Assembly: GCF_000226295.1 (NCBI RefSeq)
Contig: NC_016025.1
Span: 620,001-684,000 of the forward strand
Length of the DNA stretch: 64,000 nucleotides
Direction: 5' to 3'
From: Chloracidobacterium thermophilum B
GTDB taxonomy: Bacteria > Acidobacteriota > Blastocatellia > Chloracidobacteriales > Chloracidobacteriaceae
Part shown: positions 4,961-12,526 of the stretch, in pieces
Layout of the letters: every line of letters starts with the position of its first letter
Position numbering within the stretch: position 1 is the stretch's first letter
Program-made: the position numbers and the translations under genes
The notes under the pieces: generated by a model
Database searches by the model: none
Told to the model about the DNA's origin: nothing
Seen by the model: only the letters and a program-made list of their open reading frames with translations

Positions 4961-5797
4961 ATGCCTTCACCGCAAACGTGGTTCATTACCGGCGTTTCGA
5001 CCGGTTTCGGTCTGGAACTTGCCAAACTTGCCCTTGAACAGGGCCACACCGTGGCCGGAACGGCGCGGCGACCTGCTGACCTGGCCGCCTTTGAAGCACT
5101 CGCGCCCGGTCGCGCCCATGCGTTCCATCTCGATTTGACAGAAGCCGGCACCGTGCCGGGGGTCGTTGCCCAGGTCATCGAACGGCTCGGACAGGTGGAT
5201 GTTGTCGTCAACAATGCCGGCTACGGAACGGCTGGCGCCATCGAGGAAGTCACCGACGAGCAGATTCGCCGCCAGATGGAGGTCAACTTTTTCGGCGCGT
5301 TGGCCGTGATGCGGGCCTTTCTGCCCTACCTGCGCCGCCAGCGAAAGGGCTGGATTCTGAACCTGTCTTCGATTGCCGGTGTGCTGGCCAATCCCGGACT
5401 GGGGCTGTACTGCGCCAGCAAATTTGCCCTTGAAGCCGTCTCGGAGGCGCTGGCGAAGGAAGTTGCGCCGCTGGGCATCAAGGTGGTCATCATCGAGCCG
5501 GGTCCCTTTCGGACGGACTTTGCCGGGCGCTCGCTGGTTGTTGCGCCGGCCATCCCGGACTACGCCGCCACGGCCGGTGCCATGCGCCGTTACTTTGAGC
5601 AGGCGAATGGCAGGCAGGCAGGCGATCCGGTCAAAGCCGCGCGCGCCATGCTGGAACTGGTCAATATGGAGAACCCACCTCTGCGGCTGGCAATGGGCAA
5701 CCGCGCCGTGGACCTCATTCGGAACAAGCTCGAAAGCCAACTGGCCGAACTGGCGCAGCATGAAAGCTGGGCCCGTTCCCTTGATTACGACGCCTGA
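4961..5797 (+). CDS. Short-chain dehydrogenase/reductase (SDR family)
   Basis: NAD(P)-dependent oxidoreductase of classical SDR type; the substrate cannot be told from sequence. TGVSTGFGLELA at residues 10-21 is the nucleotide-binding glycine motif (Phe replaces the more usual Ile). The NNAGYG motif is present, and the catalytic Ser is in LNLSSIAG. Tyr and Lys are in YCASK, followed by IEPGPFRTDF. The 278-residue length suits the subgroup often annotated 'oxidoreductase/retinol dehydrogenase-like'. A GAGGA ribosome-binding site seven bases upstream supports the start. It lies 22 bases before the EF-P gene and is probably cotranscribed with it. Confidence 0.93.
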   Translation: MPSPQTWFITGVSTGFGLELAKLALEQGHTVAGTARRPADLAAFEALAPGRAHAFHLDLTEAGTVPGVVAQVIERLGQVDVVVNNAGYGTAGAIEEVTDEQIRRQMEVNFFGALAVMRAFLPYLRRQRKGWILNLSSIAGVLANPGLGLYCASKFALEAVSEALAKEVAPLGIKVVIIEPGPFRTDFAGRSLVVAPAIPDYAATAGAMRRYFEQANGRQAGDPVKAARAMLELVNMENPPLRLAMGNRAVDLIRNKLESQLAELAQHESWARSLDYDA

Positions 5798-5819
5798 TGG
5801 ATGCACGGGAGGAGTTGCC

Positions 5820-6392
5820 ATGCTTTCAACATCCGACTTCAAACGCGGGGCCTACATCCTCGTGGATGGTGAACCCTACACCGTCCTGGACTGGACGGTT
5901 CAGACGCCCTCGGCGCGGGGCGCGGCAACGCTTGTCCGCACGCGCGTGCGCCACGTTCTGACCCAGGCCGTCCTGGAAAAAACCTTCAAATCGGGTGACA
6001 AATTCGATGAACCCGACATTGACCAGCGGGAAGTGCAGTTTTTGTACGAATCCGGCGGCGAGTATGTCTTTCTCGACCAGGAAACCTATGAGCAGTACAC
6101 CCTGCCGGCCCCGGCGATGGAGCGGCTGACGCCCTATCTGACCGAAAACGCGCAGCTCAAAGCGCTGTTTTACGAAGGGAACCTGGTCAGTGTGGAGCTG
6201 CCGCAGTTTATGGAGTTTGAGGTTGTGGAAACCGAACCCGGCGCGCGCGGCGACACGGCCGCCGGCAAGGTGACGAAACCGGCGCGCATCAGCACCGGCG
6301 CGAGCGTCAAAGTGCCGCTGTATATCGAAGTCGGAGAACGTATCGTCGTGGATACCACGACCGGCGAGTTTGCCCGCCGTGCCAAATCCTGA
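5820..6392 (+). CDS. efp: Elongation factor P family protein with EfpL (YeiP)-like loop
   Basis: EF-P binds between the ribosomal P and E sites and relieves stalling at proline stretches. The 190-residue protein has the three family domains: KOW-like N-terminus (KRGAYILVDGEPY), the middle OB domain (FLDQETYEQYTLP) and the C-terminal OB domain (PARISTGASVKVP, YIEVGERIVVDTTTGEF). The loop that carries the modified lysine in EF-P reads TPSARGAATL. This matches the longer loop of EfpL/YeiP (SPTARGAATL in E. coli, from memory) and puts Arg33 at the tip. No EpmA or EarP gene is nearby. The start is fixed by a GGGAGGAG site five bases upstream. It may be the cell's only EF-P or a paralogue. Confidence 0.92.
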   Translation: MLSTSDFKRGAYILVDGEPYTVLDWTVQTPSARGAATLVRTRVRHVLTQAVLEKTFKSGDKFDEPDIDQREVQFLYESGGEYVFLDQETYEQYTLPAPAMERLTPYLTENAQLKALFYEGNLVSVELPQFMEFEVVETEPGARGDTAAGKVTKPARISTGASVKVPLYIEVGERIVVDTTTGEFARRAKS

Positions 6393-6577
6393 ACGTTTTG
6401 CCCAAACGCTACCTGCCACAGGCCGCAGTTGGCTGACATTCACCGGAAAGCGCGCCGTTGTAAAAAAATGTTTTCGGTCTGGTCAGGGAGAATTGATTGC
6501 GCCATATTGGGTGTTTTCCACTCCCTGTCCAAACCGAAGACGGGGCTGACTTCCGTTTTTTCTCCTGTCCACAGTCA

Positions 6578-8593
6578 ATGCTCAAATCTACGCTCTCTGT
6601 TCTGTTTTGTCTGGCGTTGGGCAGCGCCCTGCTGACACCGGCCGCCGCTCAGTCCGAGCGGCCCGGTGAGGTTACACCGGCGCGCAGCTATGCCATCGTC
6701 AACGCCCGTCTTGTTCCAGTTGCCGGTCCGCCCATTGAACGGGGCACGATTGTCATTCGCAATGGCCTCATTGTCGCCGTTGGCGCGGATGTCAAACCGC
6801 CGGCCGATGCGCGCCAACTGGATGGCACGGGCCTGACGGTCTATCCCGGTCTCATGGAAGCCGTTGGGCACCTTGGTTTTGCACCAGCGCCGCCGGCCAC
6901 GCCGCCACCAGCGGGACCTGTCCGGGCCGCACCGGGGACGACGCCTCCAGCCGTACCGGTTGGCGGGCTGGCCAACTCGACCCGTCCGACCGGCTTTCAA
7001 CCGGAGTTGCTGGCCGCCGAACTCGTCCGCCCGAACGGGGACGGACTGGAAGCCGCCCGGCAGGCCGGCTTCACCACGGCGCTGACCATTCCGCGCGACG
7101 GCATCGTTCTGGGGCGGTCGGCTGTCATTGCCCTGGCGGCCGATTCGCCCCGTGAAATGGTCATCCGCACGCCTGTGGCGCTGCATATTGCCTTTCGGGT
7201 GGTTTCCGGCAGCGGTTATCCCAACTCCCTTATGGGCGTTTTTTCCATGGTGCGGCAGGCATTTCTCGATGCCCAGCAGTACCAGGCGCACTGGGCGGCC
7301 TACCGCGCCAACCCACGGGGCATGAAGCGGCCGGCGGATGACCCGTCGCTCGAAGCCCTGCTTCCGGCGCTCAACCGCGAACTGCCCGTGGTCTTCCACG
7401 CCGACACCGAACGTGAAATCATCCGGGCACTCGACTTTGCCCGCGAATTCAACCTGCGCCCCATCATTGCCGGTGGGCGTGAAGCCGAAAAGGTGGCCGA
7501 CCGCCTGAAGGCGGCCCAGGCGGCTGTGCTGCTGTCGCTGAATTTCCCCAAGCGCACCACGGCCTTTGCGCCCGAAGCTGATCCGGAACCGCTTTCCCTG
7601 CTCCGGGCGCGCATAGCAGCGCTCAAAACGGCGGCAGCACTGCACAGCGCCGGCATTCCCTTTGCTTTCCAGACCGGCGGGCTGTCCCCGGCAGAAGCCC
7701 TGTCAAACGTCAAAAAGGCCATTGAGAATGGCCTGCCGGCTGAGGCGGCGATTCGCGCGCTGACGCTTCGGCCGGCAGAAATGTTCGGTCTGGCCGACCG
7801 CCTTGGAAGCCTCGAAGCTGGTAAGGTCGCCAACCTGGTGGCCGTGCGGGGAGACCTTTTTGATGCCAGGCGCAAAGTGGCCTTCGTCTTCATTGACGGG
7901 GCCATGGTCAACCTGCGCGGCTCCAACGTCACGCCAGGCGAGATCGCCGGCACGTGGGAGACAAAAGACCTGAAGCTCACCTTCAGCCGTGAGAACAACG
8001 AACTCAAGGGCAAGGTGCGCATAGGCGACACCGACATCGAGGTACGTGAACTGCGTCTCGGTCTGGATGAAGACGCTTCTCTTTCCACAGTACGATTCGT
8101 TGCTGACCTGCCACGGGATGGCGCAACCAGGGCGGCGATCTTTACCGGCAAGTACACGAGTGACGAACTGCGCGGAACCTTCACCGTGGACGGGAAAGCC
8201 GAACCCGAACGCCTGTTCAAACGGGGCACGGCTCCGCCGGCGACGCCGGGCGCGGCAGCAACCGGCACAGCCAATGGGTCGGGAGCGGTCTTTGACTTTA
8301 CCGGTACCTGGAACCTCACCATCTCCTTCGGACCGCAGAGCCTTCCGGCAACGATGACGCTCCGGCAGGAAGGCACGAATGTGTCAGGGACGTTGAGCCT
8401 GGGGCCGGTCGGCACCGTGGAGTTGAGCAACGGACGTGTCACCGGCAACCGCATGGAAGCCACGGCCCGCGTGGATTTCGGCGGCCGCAGCGTTGAACTC
8501 CAGCTCAGCGGCACCGGCAACGGCAACAGCCTCGAAGGGACGGTGACTTCTCCGCAAGGTACAGCGGCTTTCAGCGGCACACGCCCCCAGTAA
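6578..8593 (+). CDS. Exported amidohydrolase-like protein, metal ligands lost
   Basis: A signal peptide (MLKSTLSVLFCLALGSALL, then TPAAAQ) is followed by an imidazolonepropionase-like amidohydrolase fold to about residue 440. A C-terminal tail of beta-rich repeats contains two similar blocks (AGTWETKDLKLTFSRE and TGTWNLTISFG). The hallmark HxH after the first barrel strand is replaced: YPGLMEAVGHLG instead of GxIDxHxH. The last-strand metal Asp is also missing (FQTGG). The His in VVFHAD remains. Catalysis by the usual binuclear mechanism therefore looks unlikely. The reading frame opens at 6497, but the ATG at 6578 starts directly at the signal peptide. Its stop codon overlaps the PhyH start (TAATG), so the two genes are coupled. 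Confidence 0.85.
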   Translation: MLKSTLSVLFCLALGSALLTPAAAQSERPGEVTPARSYAIVNARLVPVAGPPIERGTIVIRNGLIVAVGADVKPPADARQLDGTGLTVYPGLMEAVGHLGFAPAPPATPPPAGPVRAAPGTTPPAVPVGGLANSTRPTGFQPELLAAELVRPNGDGLEAARQAGFTTALTIPRDGIVLGRSAVIALAADSPREMVIRTPVALHIAFRVVSGSGYPNSLMGVFSMVRQAFLDAQQYQAHWAAYRANPRGMKRPADDPSLEALLPALNRELPVVFHADTEREIIRALDFAREFNLRPIIAGGREAEKVADRLKAAQAAVLLSLNFPKRTTAFAPEADPEPLSLLRARIAALKTAAALHSAGIPFAFQTGGLSPAEALSNVKKAIENGLPAEAAIRALTLRPAEMFGLADRLGSLEAGKVANLVAVRGDLFDARRKVAFVFIDGAMVNLRGSNVTPGEIAGTWETKDLKLTFSRENNELKGKVRIGDTDIEVRELRLGLDEDASLSTVRFVADLPRDGATRAAIFTGKYTSDELRGTFTVDGKAEPERLFKRGTAPPATPGAAATGTANGSGAVFDFTGTWNLTISFGPQSLPATMTLRQEGTNVSGTLSLGPVGTVELSNGRVTGNRMEATARVDFGGRSVELQLSGTGNGNSLEGTVTSPQGTAAFSGTRPQ

Positions 8594-9633
8594 TGACGGG
8601 TAAGCCGCCCGCAAACCAGAGAGCAATGCTTGGATCGTGGCTGAAAACGTTTTTCCCCGGACGCCGCAGCATCCCGGACAAGGCGGCGGAACCTGACTTT
8701 GATCCCCAGACGCTGCCCTGGATTGACCGCCCGGAAGCCGATCTCGAAGGCTATCTGCGCGGCCTTTCCAAGGCGGAACAGGACATGTTCGGGCCGGCAC
8801 TGCGGTCGTGGCGCGATCTGGGCTATGCCATCTTTCCCCAGGCGGTCAGCCACGAGTTGATTGACGCCTACCTGGCCGACATCGAAGAACTCTATGCACA
8901 GCGGCGCTGGCGGGCGCTCGTTCTGGGAGAAAGTTTTGGCGTCCAGCCGGTGCAGGCGTTGTCCCGGGAAACACTCGAAGGCGAACATCACCTTCGGCTC
9001 ATGGACTTTCACAACCACTCGGTGGCCGGGAAGAAACTGGCCCTCAACGCCAAGGCCGTGACGTTTCTGCGCCATGTGTTTCAGGACGAGGTTGTGGCCA
9101 TGCAGTCGCTGACCTTCATCCACGGCTCGGAACAATGGACGCACCAGGACTTTCCCTACGTCGTGGCGCAGATTCCCAGCCACCTGGCTGCTTCCTGGAT
9201 TGCGCTGGAGGACGTGCACCCGGACGCCGGCCCGCTCGGTTATTTCCCTGGTTCCCACCGGCTGCCCAAGTTCAACTTCGGGAACGGTCTCTTTCTGACG
9301 CCGGAATCGCCGCTCCGGGAAGATGCCTTCCGGGAACACCTGGAAAGACACTGCGCGGCACGGGGCATCGAACGCCAGGTTTTTCTTCCCAGGAAGGGCG
9401 ACATGTTCGTGTGGCACGCTGCGCTGGCCCACGGCGGGACGAAGGTCAACAATCCCAACCTGACGCGCAAATCGTTCGTGACGCACTACTCATCGCTGCG
9501 CGCCTACCCACGCGACCGCCGCGCGCCGGAGATTATCCCCAGGCGTTGGACATGGAATGGCGCACACCTGTACGAAAACCCCCTGCTCCCGGAAGAAGAA
9601 AACAGCTTCCGGCGCGGAGAAGCCGTCGAATGA
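8593..9633 (+). CDS. Phytanoyl-CoA dioxygenase (PhyH) family protein
   Basis: Fe(II)/2-oxoglutarate-dependent oxygenase fold of 346 residues. The facial triad is visible as HQD at His184/Asp186 and the distal His in LAHGG (His280). Arg292 in NPNLTRKSF is a plausible 2-oxoglutarate anchor. The substrate is unknown; relatives hydroxylate lipids, amino acids or antibiotics. No signal peptide is visible, so it is cytoplasmic. It is translationally coupled to the upstream amidohydrolase-like gene (TAATG) and followed about 100 bases later by a second amidohydrolase. An internal ATG at codon 12 is a possible alternative start. Confidence 0.88.
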   Translation: MTGKPPANQRAMLGSWLKTFFPGRRSIPDKAAEPDFDPQTLPWIDRPEADLEGYLRGLSKAEQDMFGPALRSWRDLGYAIFPQAVSHELIDAYLADIEELYAQRRWRALVLGESFGVQPVQALSRETLEGEHHLRLMDFHNHSVAGKKLALNAKAVTFLRHVFQDEVVAMQSLTFIHGSEQWTHQDFPYVVAQIPSHLAASWIALEDVHPDAGPLGYFPGSHRLPKFNFGNGLFLTPESPLREDAFREHLERHCAARGIERQVFLPRKGDMFVWHAALAHGGTKVNNPNLTRKSFVTHYSSLRAYPRDRRAPEIIPRRWTWNGAHLYENPLLPEEENSFRRGEAVE

Positions 9634-9740
9634 GGGAGCTTGTCAACCGCCTGACGAACCGGCCGGCCCCACGTGGCGGCACGACACCGCCCCAGTCGGC
9701 AACCTGCCATCACCCCGCTCGGAGGTCTGAGGACGTTTGT

Positions 9741-11171
9741 ATGCTGAACACCACACCCTTACGCTTTGCCCTCGCCTGTGGGCTGGCCACGGCGCTCGGC
9801 TTCGGAACGCCGGCCCGGACGCCAGCCCAGCAGAAGGCCCAGACACCAACGCTCATCAGGAACGCCACCCTGCTGACCGTCACCAAAGGCACACTGGAAA
9901 ACAGTGACCTGCTTATCGAGAACGGCAAGATTGCCAAAATCGGCAAGGGTCTGACAGCTCCAGCCGGCGCGCGGGTCATTGATGCCACGGGGAAGTACGT
10001 CCTGCCGGGCATCATTGACTGTCACTCGCATTCGATGATTGACGCGGTCAACGAGGGTTCGCTTTCGGTGACTTCCATGTGCCGCATCCGCGACGTGCTC
10101 AACCCGAACGACGTGGATTTGTACCGCGCTCTGGCTGGCGGTGTTACGACGCTGAACCTGCTGCACGGTTCGGCCAACGCGATTGGCGGACAAAACCAGG
10201 TCGTCAAGATCAAGTACGGGCGGCCCATCGAGGAATTCCTGTTCCCCGATGCTCCGCCGGGCATCAAGTTTGCTCTGGGTGAAAATCCCAAGCGGTCGAA
10301 CTTCCGTTTTCCGGGCCAGACGCAGCGGTATCCCAACTCACGCATGGGCGTGGAGGAAACCATCCGTGATGCCTTCGTGCGGGCGCGGGATTACAAGCGC
10401 CAGTGGGATGACTACAACGCCGCCAAAGCCCGTGGCGAAAATGTCGTAACGCCCCGGCGGGACTTGCAGCTTGAGCCGCTCGTTGAGGTGCTGGAAGGCA
10501 AACGCTACGTGCATGCGCACTGCTACCGCGCCGAAGAAATCCTGATGCTGATGAATCTGGCCGAGGAGTTCGGCTTTCGGGTGCGGACGCTCCAGCACGT
10601 GCTGGAGGGCTACAAAATTGCCCGTGAAATTGCCAAACACGGCGCCGGCGCTTCCGCCTTTGCCGATTTCTGGTCCTACAAGGTCGAAGCCTACGACGCC
10701 ATTCCGCATGACGCCGCCCTGATGACCCGCGCCGGTGTCATTGTCTCGCTCAACTCGGATGATGACGGACGCGCGCGCCGGCTCAACATGGAAGCCGCGC
10801 GCGTCATGAAATACGGCGACCTGACCGAAAACGAGGCGCTGCGGCTCATCACCATCAACCCGGCCATTCAGTTGGGCATTGACCGGCGGGTTGGCTCACT
10901 GGAAGTCGGCAAGGATGCCGACCTGGCGATCTGGACGGCGCATCCTCTGAGCGTCTATGCCCGTGTTGAGACGACGTTCATAGACGGCGAAGTGTTTTTT
11001 GACCGGCAAACCGACCTGGCGCGACGCGAGGCATTGGCCAGGGAGCGCGCCGAGCTTGAAGCGGCGGAAGTCAACCGTCCACAGGGTGGCGGCGCACCGC
11101 CGCCGGTGCCGGCCCGCCGCCGTCCGGCCTACAGCTTCGGCGACAACTGCATGCAGATGACAAAGGAGTAA
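9741..11171 (+). CDS. Exported amidohydrolase with intact metal site
   Basis: A 476-residue secreted or periplasmic enzyme of the imidazolonepropionase-like amidohydrolase group; the substrate is probably a cyclic amide or dipeptide, by family only. The signal peptide is in the first 30 residues (to TPAQQ). The binuclear metal ligands are all visible: HSH at His95/His97, His in YVHAHCY, His in TLQHVLEG and Asp in SLNSDDD. The frame is open far upstream (from 9135), overlapping PhyH out of frame. The signal peptide and a TGAGGA site set the start at 9741. It is followed eight bases later by a paralogue that has lost these ligands. Confidence 0.9.
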   Translation: MLNTTPLRFALACGLATALGFGTPARTPAQQKAQTPTLIRNATLLTVTKGTLENSDLLIENGKIAKIGKGLTAPAGARVIDATGKYVLPGIIDCHSHSMIDAVNEGSLSVTSMCRIRDVLNPNDVDLYRALAGGVTTLNLLHGSANAIGGQNQVVKIKYGRPIEEFLFPDAPPGIKFALGENPKRSNFRFPGQTQRYPNSRMGVEETIRDAFVRARDYKRQWDDYNAAKARGENVVTPRRDLQLEPLVEVLEGKRYVHAHCYRAEEILMLMNLAEEFGFRVRTLQHVLEGYKIAREIAKHGAGASAFADFWSYKVEAYDAIPHDAALMTRAGVIVSLNSDDDGRARRLNMEAARVMKYGDLTENEALRLITINPAIQLGIDRRVGSLEVGKDADLAIWTAHPLSVYARVETTFIDGEVFFDRQTDLARREALARERAELEAAEVNRPQGGGAPPPVPARRRPAYSFGDNCMQMTKE

Positions 11172-11179
11172 GCGCGACG

Positions 11180-12526
11180 ATGAGAGCTGTTGGTCAACTT
11201 CGTTGGTTTCGGCTGGTAGCGGGCCTTGGCTTTTGCCTGGCCCTGACACTTGACGCCCTTGCCCAGCAAAAGCTGGATATTGCGCCGCGCGTGACCGTGG
11301 CCATCCGCGACGCCCGACTGGTGACGGTCAGCGGAGAAACCATCGAGCGCGGCACGCTGGTCATCCGGGACGGCCGGATTGCCGCCGTCGGTGCCACGGC
11401 GGCCATTCCCTCCGGGGCGCAAATCATTGACGGCAAGGGATTGACGGTCTATCCCGGCATGATTGACGCGGCGACATCGCTGGGCCTGGTTGAAATCCCG
11501 GCCGTAGCCGCCACGGTGGATCAGGGCGAAGTCGGCGATTACAACCCGAACGCGCGCGCCATCGTGGCCGTCAATCCGCACAGCGCCCACGTGCGCGTCA
11601 CACGCTACAACGGCATCACGAATGTGGCGACAATGCCTGATGGCGGCGTCATCTGTGGACAGGCAACCTTTATCAACCTCTACGGAACGTCGCCGCAGGA
11701 AATGGCGGTTGTACCGTCGCTGGGGTTGGTCATCAACTTTCCACGGCTGAACACCGGTGGCGGGGGGCCGTTTGCAGCGTTTCGCCAGCCGCCGCCGGCC
11801 AACATTGCCGAGGCCATTGCGACGCGCAACCGGCGTGTCGAGGAACTCCGGCAGGTGCTGCGCGAAGCCGCGGATTACGGCCGCGCCAAAGCCGCCGCGG
11901 CCGCCGACCCGAACATCCCGCGTCCGGCGACAAACGTTGTGTATGAAAGCCTGCTGCCGGCGCTGCGCGGTGAAATGCCGGTGTTTTTCCGGGCTGACCG
12001 GGCGCAGGACATTCACGCCGTGCTGGCCTTTGCCGAGGACATGGGGCTGCGCCCGATTATCGTTGGGGGCAATGACGCATGGATGTGTGCGGCGGAACTC
12101 AAAGCCAAAAACGTCCCGGTCATTCTGACAGGCGTGCTCGACCTGCCCAGCCGGGAAGATGATCCCTACGATGTGCTCTATGAAAATGCGGCCAAGCTGC
12201 ACCAGGCGGGTGTGAAGTTCTGCATCTCGACAGGCGACAACGGGGCGCACGTCCGCGATCTGCCCTATCACGCCGGGATGGCGGCGGCGTTTGGCCTCAG
12301 CCCCCAGGCGGCTCTGCGGGCGGTGACGCTTTCGGCGGCCGAAGTGCTGGGCGTCAGCGACCGTCTGGGATCGCTCGATGTGGGGAAAATGGCGAACGTC
12401 GTGGTCGCCGATGGCGATCTGCTCGAACCCCGGACGCGCGTCAAATATGCCTTCATTGACGGCCGTCCGGCACAACTGACGAGTCGCCACACGGAACTCT
12501 ACGAGCAGTTCAAGGAACGGAAATAG
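11180..12526 (+). CDS. Exported amidohydrolase-like protein, metal ligands lost
   Basis: A 448-residue paralogue of the two upstream amidohydrolases, with a signal peptide (LVAGLGFCLALTLDALAQ). The barrel strands are recognisable (TVYPGMIDAATS, FFRADRAQDIHAV, LSAAEVLGVSDRLGSLDVGK). However, HxH is replaced by AATS, the strand-5 His by Arg (FRAD) and the final Asp region by STGDNGAH. The C-terminal composite-domain strand VKYAFIDGRP is kept. AAGGAG ten bases upstream supports the start. It is probably cotranscribed with the active paralogue just upstream and may be its partner subunit. Confidence 0.87.
   Translation: MRAVGQLRWFRLVAGLGFCLALTLDALAQQKLDIAPRVTVAIRDARLVTVSGETIERGTLVIRDGRIAAVGATAAIPSGAQIIDGKGLTVYPGMIDAATSLGLVEIPAVAATVDQGEVGDYNPNARAIVAVNPHSAHVRVTRYNGITNVATMPDGGVICGQATFINLYGTSPQEMAVVPSLGLVINFPRLNTGGGGPFAAFRQPPPANIAEAIATRNRRVEELRQVLREAADYGRAKAAAAADPNIPRPATNVVYESLLPALRGEMPVFFRADRAQDIHAVLAFAEDMGLRPIIVGGNDAWMCAAELKAKNVPVILTGVLDLPSREDDPYDVLYENAAKLHQAGVKFCISTGDNGAHVRDLPYHAGMAAAFGLSPQAALRAVTLSAAEVLGVSDRLGSLDVGKMANVVVADGDLLEPRTRVKYAFIDGRPAQLTSRHTELYEQFKERK

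Follow-up and report, generated by a model that had tools for sequence, protein, structure and literature searches.

The locus examined here raises the question of whether a bacterium may relieve ribosomes slowed at proline with an arginine that carries no modification. Elongation factor P (EF-P) is usually thought to require a modified tip. A preliminary description of the gene, which lies in a 64,000-nucleotide stretch of Chloracidobacterium thermophilum B (NC_016025.1, positions 620,001 to 684,000; "the window"), pointed out an EfpL-like loop with Arg33 at its tip and no modifiable lysine. It proposed that, were this the only EF-P, the organism may resolve proline stalls with an unmodified arginine. 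The source genome consists of two contigs of 2,683,362 and 1,012,010 bases, and in this genus the two chromosomes measure about 2.7 and 1.0 Mbp (PMC8245765). The features discussed below are collected in Table 1.

Table 1. Features in the window (positions a..b or a-b with no prefix), on the other chromosome (C1) and in loci read from the same genome (L numbers).
Feature	Position	Strand	Basis or remark
Short-chain dehydrogenase/reductase of PRK06180 type; 22 bases separate its end from the efpL start	4961..5797	+	upstream neighbour
Ribosome-binding site GGGAGGAG, five bases ahead of the efpL ATG	5807..5814	+	sequence
efpL (P0001), encoding a 190-aa EF-P paralogue of EfpL type	5820..6392	+	ORF translation, Pfam, tree
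Extended loop TPSARGAAT, nine codons (residues 29-37); Arg33 at 5916-5918	5904..5930	+	sequence, alignment with E. coli EfpL, predicted strands
Gly144-Asp145-Thr146 codons, domain 3; counterpart of E. coli EF-P 144GDT146	6249..6257	+	alignment; role as reported in PMC11611912
Three amidohydrolase-like genes and a PhyH-like gene	6497-12526		named by eye
Second EF-P, 185 aa, Asn tip (HTPGNLRAMVQ)	C1:1362661-1363215	-	PF01132 and protein searches
Lysyl-tRNA synthetase	L322:1177-2715, C1 about 1,026,177-1,027,715	-	TIGR00499
Deoxyhypusine-synthase (DS)-family gene 1 (better match), beside speA and a QueD-like gene	L200:9341-10432, C1 about 2,458,341-2,459,432	-	
DS-family gene 2	L201:8533-9558, C1 about 1,894,533-1,895,558	-	best model homospermidine, far below cut-off

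The translated efpL ORF contains VQTPSARGAATL, in which residue 33 is arginine, and its product has all three Pfam domains, EFP_N, EFP and Elong-fact-P_C, above cut-off. An AlphaFold2 model made from a 30-row alignment (mean pLDDT 91.3) predicts strands at residues 18-28 and 38-45. These flank residues 29-37 as a nine-residue loop, with Pro30 placed three residues before Arg33. Letter for letter, the same loop occurs in two more Chloracidobacterium genomes (L005, L006). Three named Chloracidobacterium/Blastocatellia records of 88-91% identity (L212-L214), which may overlap with those two, also have it. In the phylum sample described below, an arginine tip with a proline three positions earlier was found in 60 of 60 proteins with a nine-residue loop; the motif is therefore not due to chance. 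A promoter and terminator scan gave no signal above that of shuffled sequences.

According to Sieber et al. 2024, the EfpL family is marked by a loop of more than seven residues between strands 3 and 4, an arginine tip and a proline three positions before it, and Acidobacteria are listed among its holders (PMC11611912). A 98-row tree was computed with the loop columns taken out and without EarP-type EF-P rows (support given as ultrafast bootstrap / SH-aLRT). All 40 of its nine-residue-loop proteins, including E. coli EfpL, fell on one side of a branch supported at 97/92, apart from EF-P, and the Chloracidobacterium protein formed with four other Blastocatellia EfpLs a five-row sub-clade (96/92). 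A quicker version of the tree gave the same EfpL grouping. The loop of the preliminary description is borne out by the ORF translation, and its EfpL likeness by the loop-free tree, the phylogeny against EF-P and EfpL that it had proposed as a check. By its sequence, the product is classed as an EfpL in the sense of Sieber et al. 2024 (PMC11611912).

In NCBI's narrow sense it does not count as a YeiP orthologue, because it scores below the cut-offs of the NCBIfam YeiP/EfpL equivalogs TIGR02178 (149.3 against 264.05 bits) and NF003392 (161.8 against 216 bits); the generic NCBIfam EF-P models are reached. The nearest solved proteins by sequence are ordinary EF-Ps (1yby, 150.6 bits, versus 116.4 bits for EfpL 8S8U). 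A Foldseek search with the model likewise returned ordinary EF-Ps as its first eleven matches, with 8S8U at ranks 12 and 14 and TM-scores of 0.64-0.66 for 8S8U versus 0.77-0.86 for several EF-Ps. The three domains, the nine-residue loop, the Arg33 tip, the preceding proline and the clade are shared with E. coli EfpL (YeiP, PDB 8S8U), at 36% identity. The two proteins differ at residues 144-146, which are GDT in Chloracidobacterium and GAS in E. coli, and at position 183, which is Phe in the Chloracidobacterium protein and Tyr in both E. coli EF-P and EfpL. In the phylum sample, position 183 is Phe in 54 of 60 EfpLs and Tyr in 118 of 120 EF-Ps.

An arginine tip is also the mark of the rhamnosylated, EarP-type EF-P, whose branch Sieber et al. 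place nearest to EfpL (PMC11611912), and the protein might be read as one of these. Its nine-residue loop and Pro30 are however the reverse of the EarP type, which has seven residues and no preceding proline, and on loop length and proline that identity was rejected as very unlikely. EarP itself was matched in 0 of 199 Acidobacteriota genomes in a search that was equally silent in its control genomes, so that its absence is unproven.

The premise that this is the only EF-P proved wrong. A PF01132 search and a protein search of the genome each returned exactly two EF-P proteins, EfpL and a second one on the other chromosome, with asparagine in place of Lys34. By NCBIfam this partner is an ordinary EF-P (TIGR00038, 236.2 bits over 185.8). 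It differs from EfpL in its seven-residue loop and its lack of an arginine tip, and from E. coli EF-P in lacking both the lysine tip and Asp145. Asparagine tips with a preceding proline are known in EF-P, and replacement of Lys34 by Asn abolished the activity of E. coli EF-P (PMC6544042). Since an asparagine tip is inactive in that protein, an arginine-tip helper would be useful.

The search for epmA, also suggested in the preliminary description, gave as its best match in the genome a protein of 263.4 bits, below the cut-off of 286.9. This is a 512-residue lysyl-tRNA synthetase (TIGR00499, 635.3 bits) with an anticodon-binding domain; the second match was under about 237 bits. EpmB gave no match in the genome at E 1e-5, with a positive E. 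coli control. Neither of the two factors has a lysine tip, and the enzymes of the beta-lysylation route were not found; with an arginine tip and no EpmA or EpmB found, EfpL does not resemble an EpmA-modified EF-P. The preliminary description had set against its proposal a standard EF-P accompanied by modification genes. A second EF-P does exist, but its tip is asparagine, and EpmA and EpmB were not found in the genome. A role for an unmodified arginine in proline rescue, alongside an Asn-tip partner, is therefore plausible by analogy with E. coli EfpL.

The C-terminal tail of the lysyl-tRNA synthetase, PPAASPPAAAPPPPAP, is rich in proline, and the enzyme is itself likely to be a client of the EF-P factors. 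A need for such factors is evident in the window, where 39 long ORFs, picked mechanically, have 11 PPP and 94 PP positions in 17,578 residues. The genome also gave one ABCF-linker match and one YebC match; the EF-P proteins are therefore not its sole means of relief.

A modifying enzyme next to the gene was considered as well. YmfI modifies EF-P in Bacillus, and the dehydrogenase upstream of efpL, ending only 22 bases ahead of it, might act on EfpL in the same way. Against this, the enzyme belongs to the PRK06180 type; none of the best 25 of its 217 matches is to a model named YmfI, and the EfpL tip has no lysine. Moreover, such a gene adjoins efpL in 4 of 84 loci, all of the genus (L206, L212-L214), and in 0 of the 80 others; in L253 a 33%-identical dehydrogenase lies about 2 kb from efpL. 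A modifying role was rejected as exceedingly unlikely on the enzyme type and the confinement of the adjacency to the genus. Because it is adjacent only in Chloracidobacterium, the dehydrogenase is probably not part of the EfpL system. On the other side of efpL, the block of amidohydrolase-like and PhyH-like genes has a whole counterpart in L206, of the same genus, and its amidohydrolase part recurs in L212.

The distribution of the two factors was followed in 199 Acidobacteriota genomes, 195 of which gave an EF-P match. From these, 180 EF-P sequences of 135 genomes and 62 families were read. They comprised the best-matching loci from both searches and genomes picked by hand among the matches listed, with the aim of at least one per genus, so the sample leans to relatives of the two Chloracidobacterium proteins. 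Of the 135 genomes, 118 count as fully read, with one sequence read if there was one match and at least two if there were more (in G188, two of three); the 17 partly read genomes were omitted from the genome counts.

EfpL and an Asn-tip EF-P occur together in 40 of the 118 fully read genomes, belonging to 18 families. An Asn-tip EF-P stands alone in 34 (33 without G010), a Lys-tip EF-P in 34, an Arg-tip EF-P in three and EfpL in two, and one genome has Lys-tip and Asn-tip proteins. Of the 44 EfpLs whose partner was read, 40 have an Asn-tip, three a Lys-tip and one an Arg-tip partner. EpmA was above cut-off in 22 of the 199 genomes; among those fully read it was found in 0 of 75 with an Asn tip, 9 of 34 with a Lys-tip EF-P alone and 2 of 3 with EfpL and a Lys tip. 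The single EF-P of G010 (L081) has an odd loop, VKIANRRAV, without the PG turn. It was kept as Asn-tip in the genome and residue counts and dropped from the kinship-aware tests.

The partner is thus of another kind than in E. coli, where that of EfpL has a beta-lysylated lysine. EfpL-like proteins of Myxococcota and Desulfuromonadales have a similar loop (PSARGAAT, PSARGAN) and fall in the same clade, and their EF-P partner was Lys-tip in 11 of 11 EfpL genomes in which it was read. This fits the published account, in which EfpL co-occurs predominantly with beta-lysylated EF-P (PMC11611912). In two Desulfuromonadales loci (L281, L287) the genes for EfpL and a Lys-tip EF-P are arranged head to head, with roughly 100-200 bases between them. 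Two Acidobacteriota EfpLs of another kind (L121 of G072, L127 of G146) group with E. coli EfpL and have GGS in place of GDT; the EF-P partner in G072 has an arginine tip on a seven-residue loop with proline (TPGRWKA).

In the raw rows EfpL goes with the asparagine tip (40 Asn-tip and 4 other rows with EfpL, 34 and 38 without; Fisher p about 1e-6 over 116 rows), the rows not being independent. In many Acidobacteriota the main EF-P belongs to a separate clade, 37 of the 98 tree rows (100/99), with Asn, Lys and Arg tips inside it; 13 changes of tip class are needed over the whole tree. Phylogenetically independent pairs differing in tip averaged 3.5 for and 0.0 against the association, of 7 (median p 0.25). 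Those differing in EfpL averaged 3.6 for and 0.0 against, of 13 (median p 0.125); this EfpL comparison omits three Asn-tip rows whose genomes have another copy that was not read. As a statistical claim the association was dropped, since it loses significance when phylogeny is taken into account.

A candidate for making the asparagine tip active is a DS-family enzyme. The Asn-tip EF-P would then be the main factor, activated by some modification, and EfpL an accessory as in E. coli. Strong PF01916 matches occur in 72 of 75 fully read Asn-tip genomes, 19 of 37 with a Lys tip and no Asn tip, and 0 of 4 with an Arg tip. Strong matches make up 150 of the 157 matched genomes, the seven weak ones (E 5.9e-5 to 6.6e-4) being excluded; with three of these (G093, G140, G162) the Lys-tip figure could be 22 of 37. 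Counted as raw rows, the gene accompanies 74 of 77 Asn-tip proteins versus 20 of 42 others (23 of 42 with the three weak matches). On the other side, kinship-aware pairs averaged 2.0 for and 0.2 against, of 8, and we are aware of no reaction of DS enzymes with asparagine. The better of the two DS genes of Chloracidobacterium adjoins speA, arginine decarboxylase, and with its QueD-like neighbour this points to polyamine synthesis. In G131 a DS gene follows a pyruvoyl-type arginine decarboxylase, identified by eye. DHS-like proteins have been proposed earlier to be connected with EF-P bearing a Lys or Asn tip (PMC6544042), but a Thermus DHS homologue makes a polyamine, caldomycin (PMC10981699). 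On the pair counts and the gene neighbours, modification of the asparagine tip by DS enzymes was given up as a claim and is kept as an unlikely alternative.

A further difference between the two factors lies in domain 3. In E. coli EF-P, residues 144GDT146 meet the E-site codon and Asp145 and Thr146 touch its bases, as described by Sieber et al. (PMC11611912). Residue 145 in the EfpLs of the phylum sample is Asp in 51 of 60, Asn in seven and Gly in two; 75 of 78 Asn-tip EF-Ps have Ala there. Where the two occur together (40 genomes), Asp145 is present in 37 of the EfpLs, the other three having Asn, and in none of the partners. Two of the three genomes with EfpL and a Lys-tip partner show the opposite, with Asp145 in the partner and Asn in EfpL, and EfpL has Asp145 in the remaining one; in the single genome with an Arg-tip partner neither protein has it. 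E. coli keeps Asp145 in EF-P (GDT) and not in EfpL (GAS), and in most of the sampled Acidobacteriota with EfpL and an Asn-tip EF-P this is reversed.

Mainly because this distribution mirrors E. coli, we considered that the roles may be swapped. EfpL would then be the main proline factor, reading codons and sufficient by itself, and the Asn-tip EF-P would be a specialised one. Asp145 is however also missing from EF-Ps of genomes in which no EfpL was read: 20 sequences with a Lys tip lack it, as do 37 with an Asn tip, including three whose genome has a further copy that was not read. The loss is therefore not caused by EfpL. The distribution of Phe and Tyr at position 183, given above, also speaks against swapped roles. 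Genomes with only an Asn-tip EF-P also exist, which suggests that this protein has some way of its own. We regard swapped roles as possible, at a tentative level. It is doubtful that in Chloracidobacterium and most EfpL-bearing Acidobacteriota EfpL is the main rescue factor, the EF-P having lost both its lysine and Asp145 and polyproline translation proceeding without modification of any EF-P.

The explanation that we consider probable is that EfpL, with an unmodified Arg33 and GDT codon reading, works beside an Asn-tip EF-P with no need of EpmA or EpmB. It is based on the family, the loop, the partner, the retained GDT and the failure to detect EpmA or EpmB in the genome; ribosome binding, lack of modification and activity of EfpL we infer. 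Counting against it are the NCBIfam EfpL/YeiP scores below cut-off, the closer match to ordinary EF-Ps in sequence and fold, Phe183, and the 34 genomes in which an Asn-tip EF-P without EfpL evidently suffices in some way. On ribosomes slowed at proline, EfpL would occupy the space between the P and E sites. Arg33, unmodified and borne on the lengthened loop, would be pressed against the CCA terminus of the proline tRNA, the GDT loop of domain 3 would read the E-site codon, and peptide bond formation would be helped. The Asn-tip EF-P would work alongside, and neither would need EpmA or EpmB. In E. coli EfpL, R33 was found unmodified by mass spectrometry, R33K did not rescue growth, and the contact of R33 with tRNA comes from a docking model (all Sieber et al., PMC11611912). 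From these E. coli results, together with the inactivity of an asparagine tip in E. coli EF-P, it follows by analogy that in Chloracidobacterium a large share of proline rescue could fall to EfpL.

The EfpL protein is itself of a known kind, in a family already recorded in Acidobacteria; its pairing with an Asn-tip EF-P is a modest new observation. A literature search found no experiment on an acidobacterial EF-P and no account of this pairing or of the mirrored Asp145, though the supplements of Sieber and of Volkwein may contain the raw pairing. EfpL has been studied so far as a helper of beta-lysylated EF-P. EfpL together with an Asn-tip EF-P, where EpmA was not found, offers a natural system for learning how far proline rescue goes without modification. 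The same pairing raises the question of what purpose the asparagine tip serves, in this genus and in many sampled members of the phylum.
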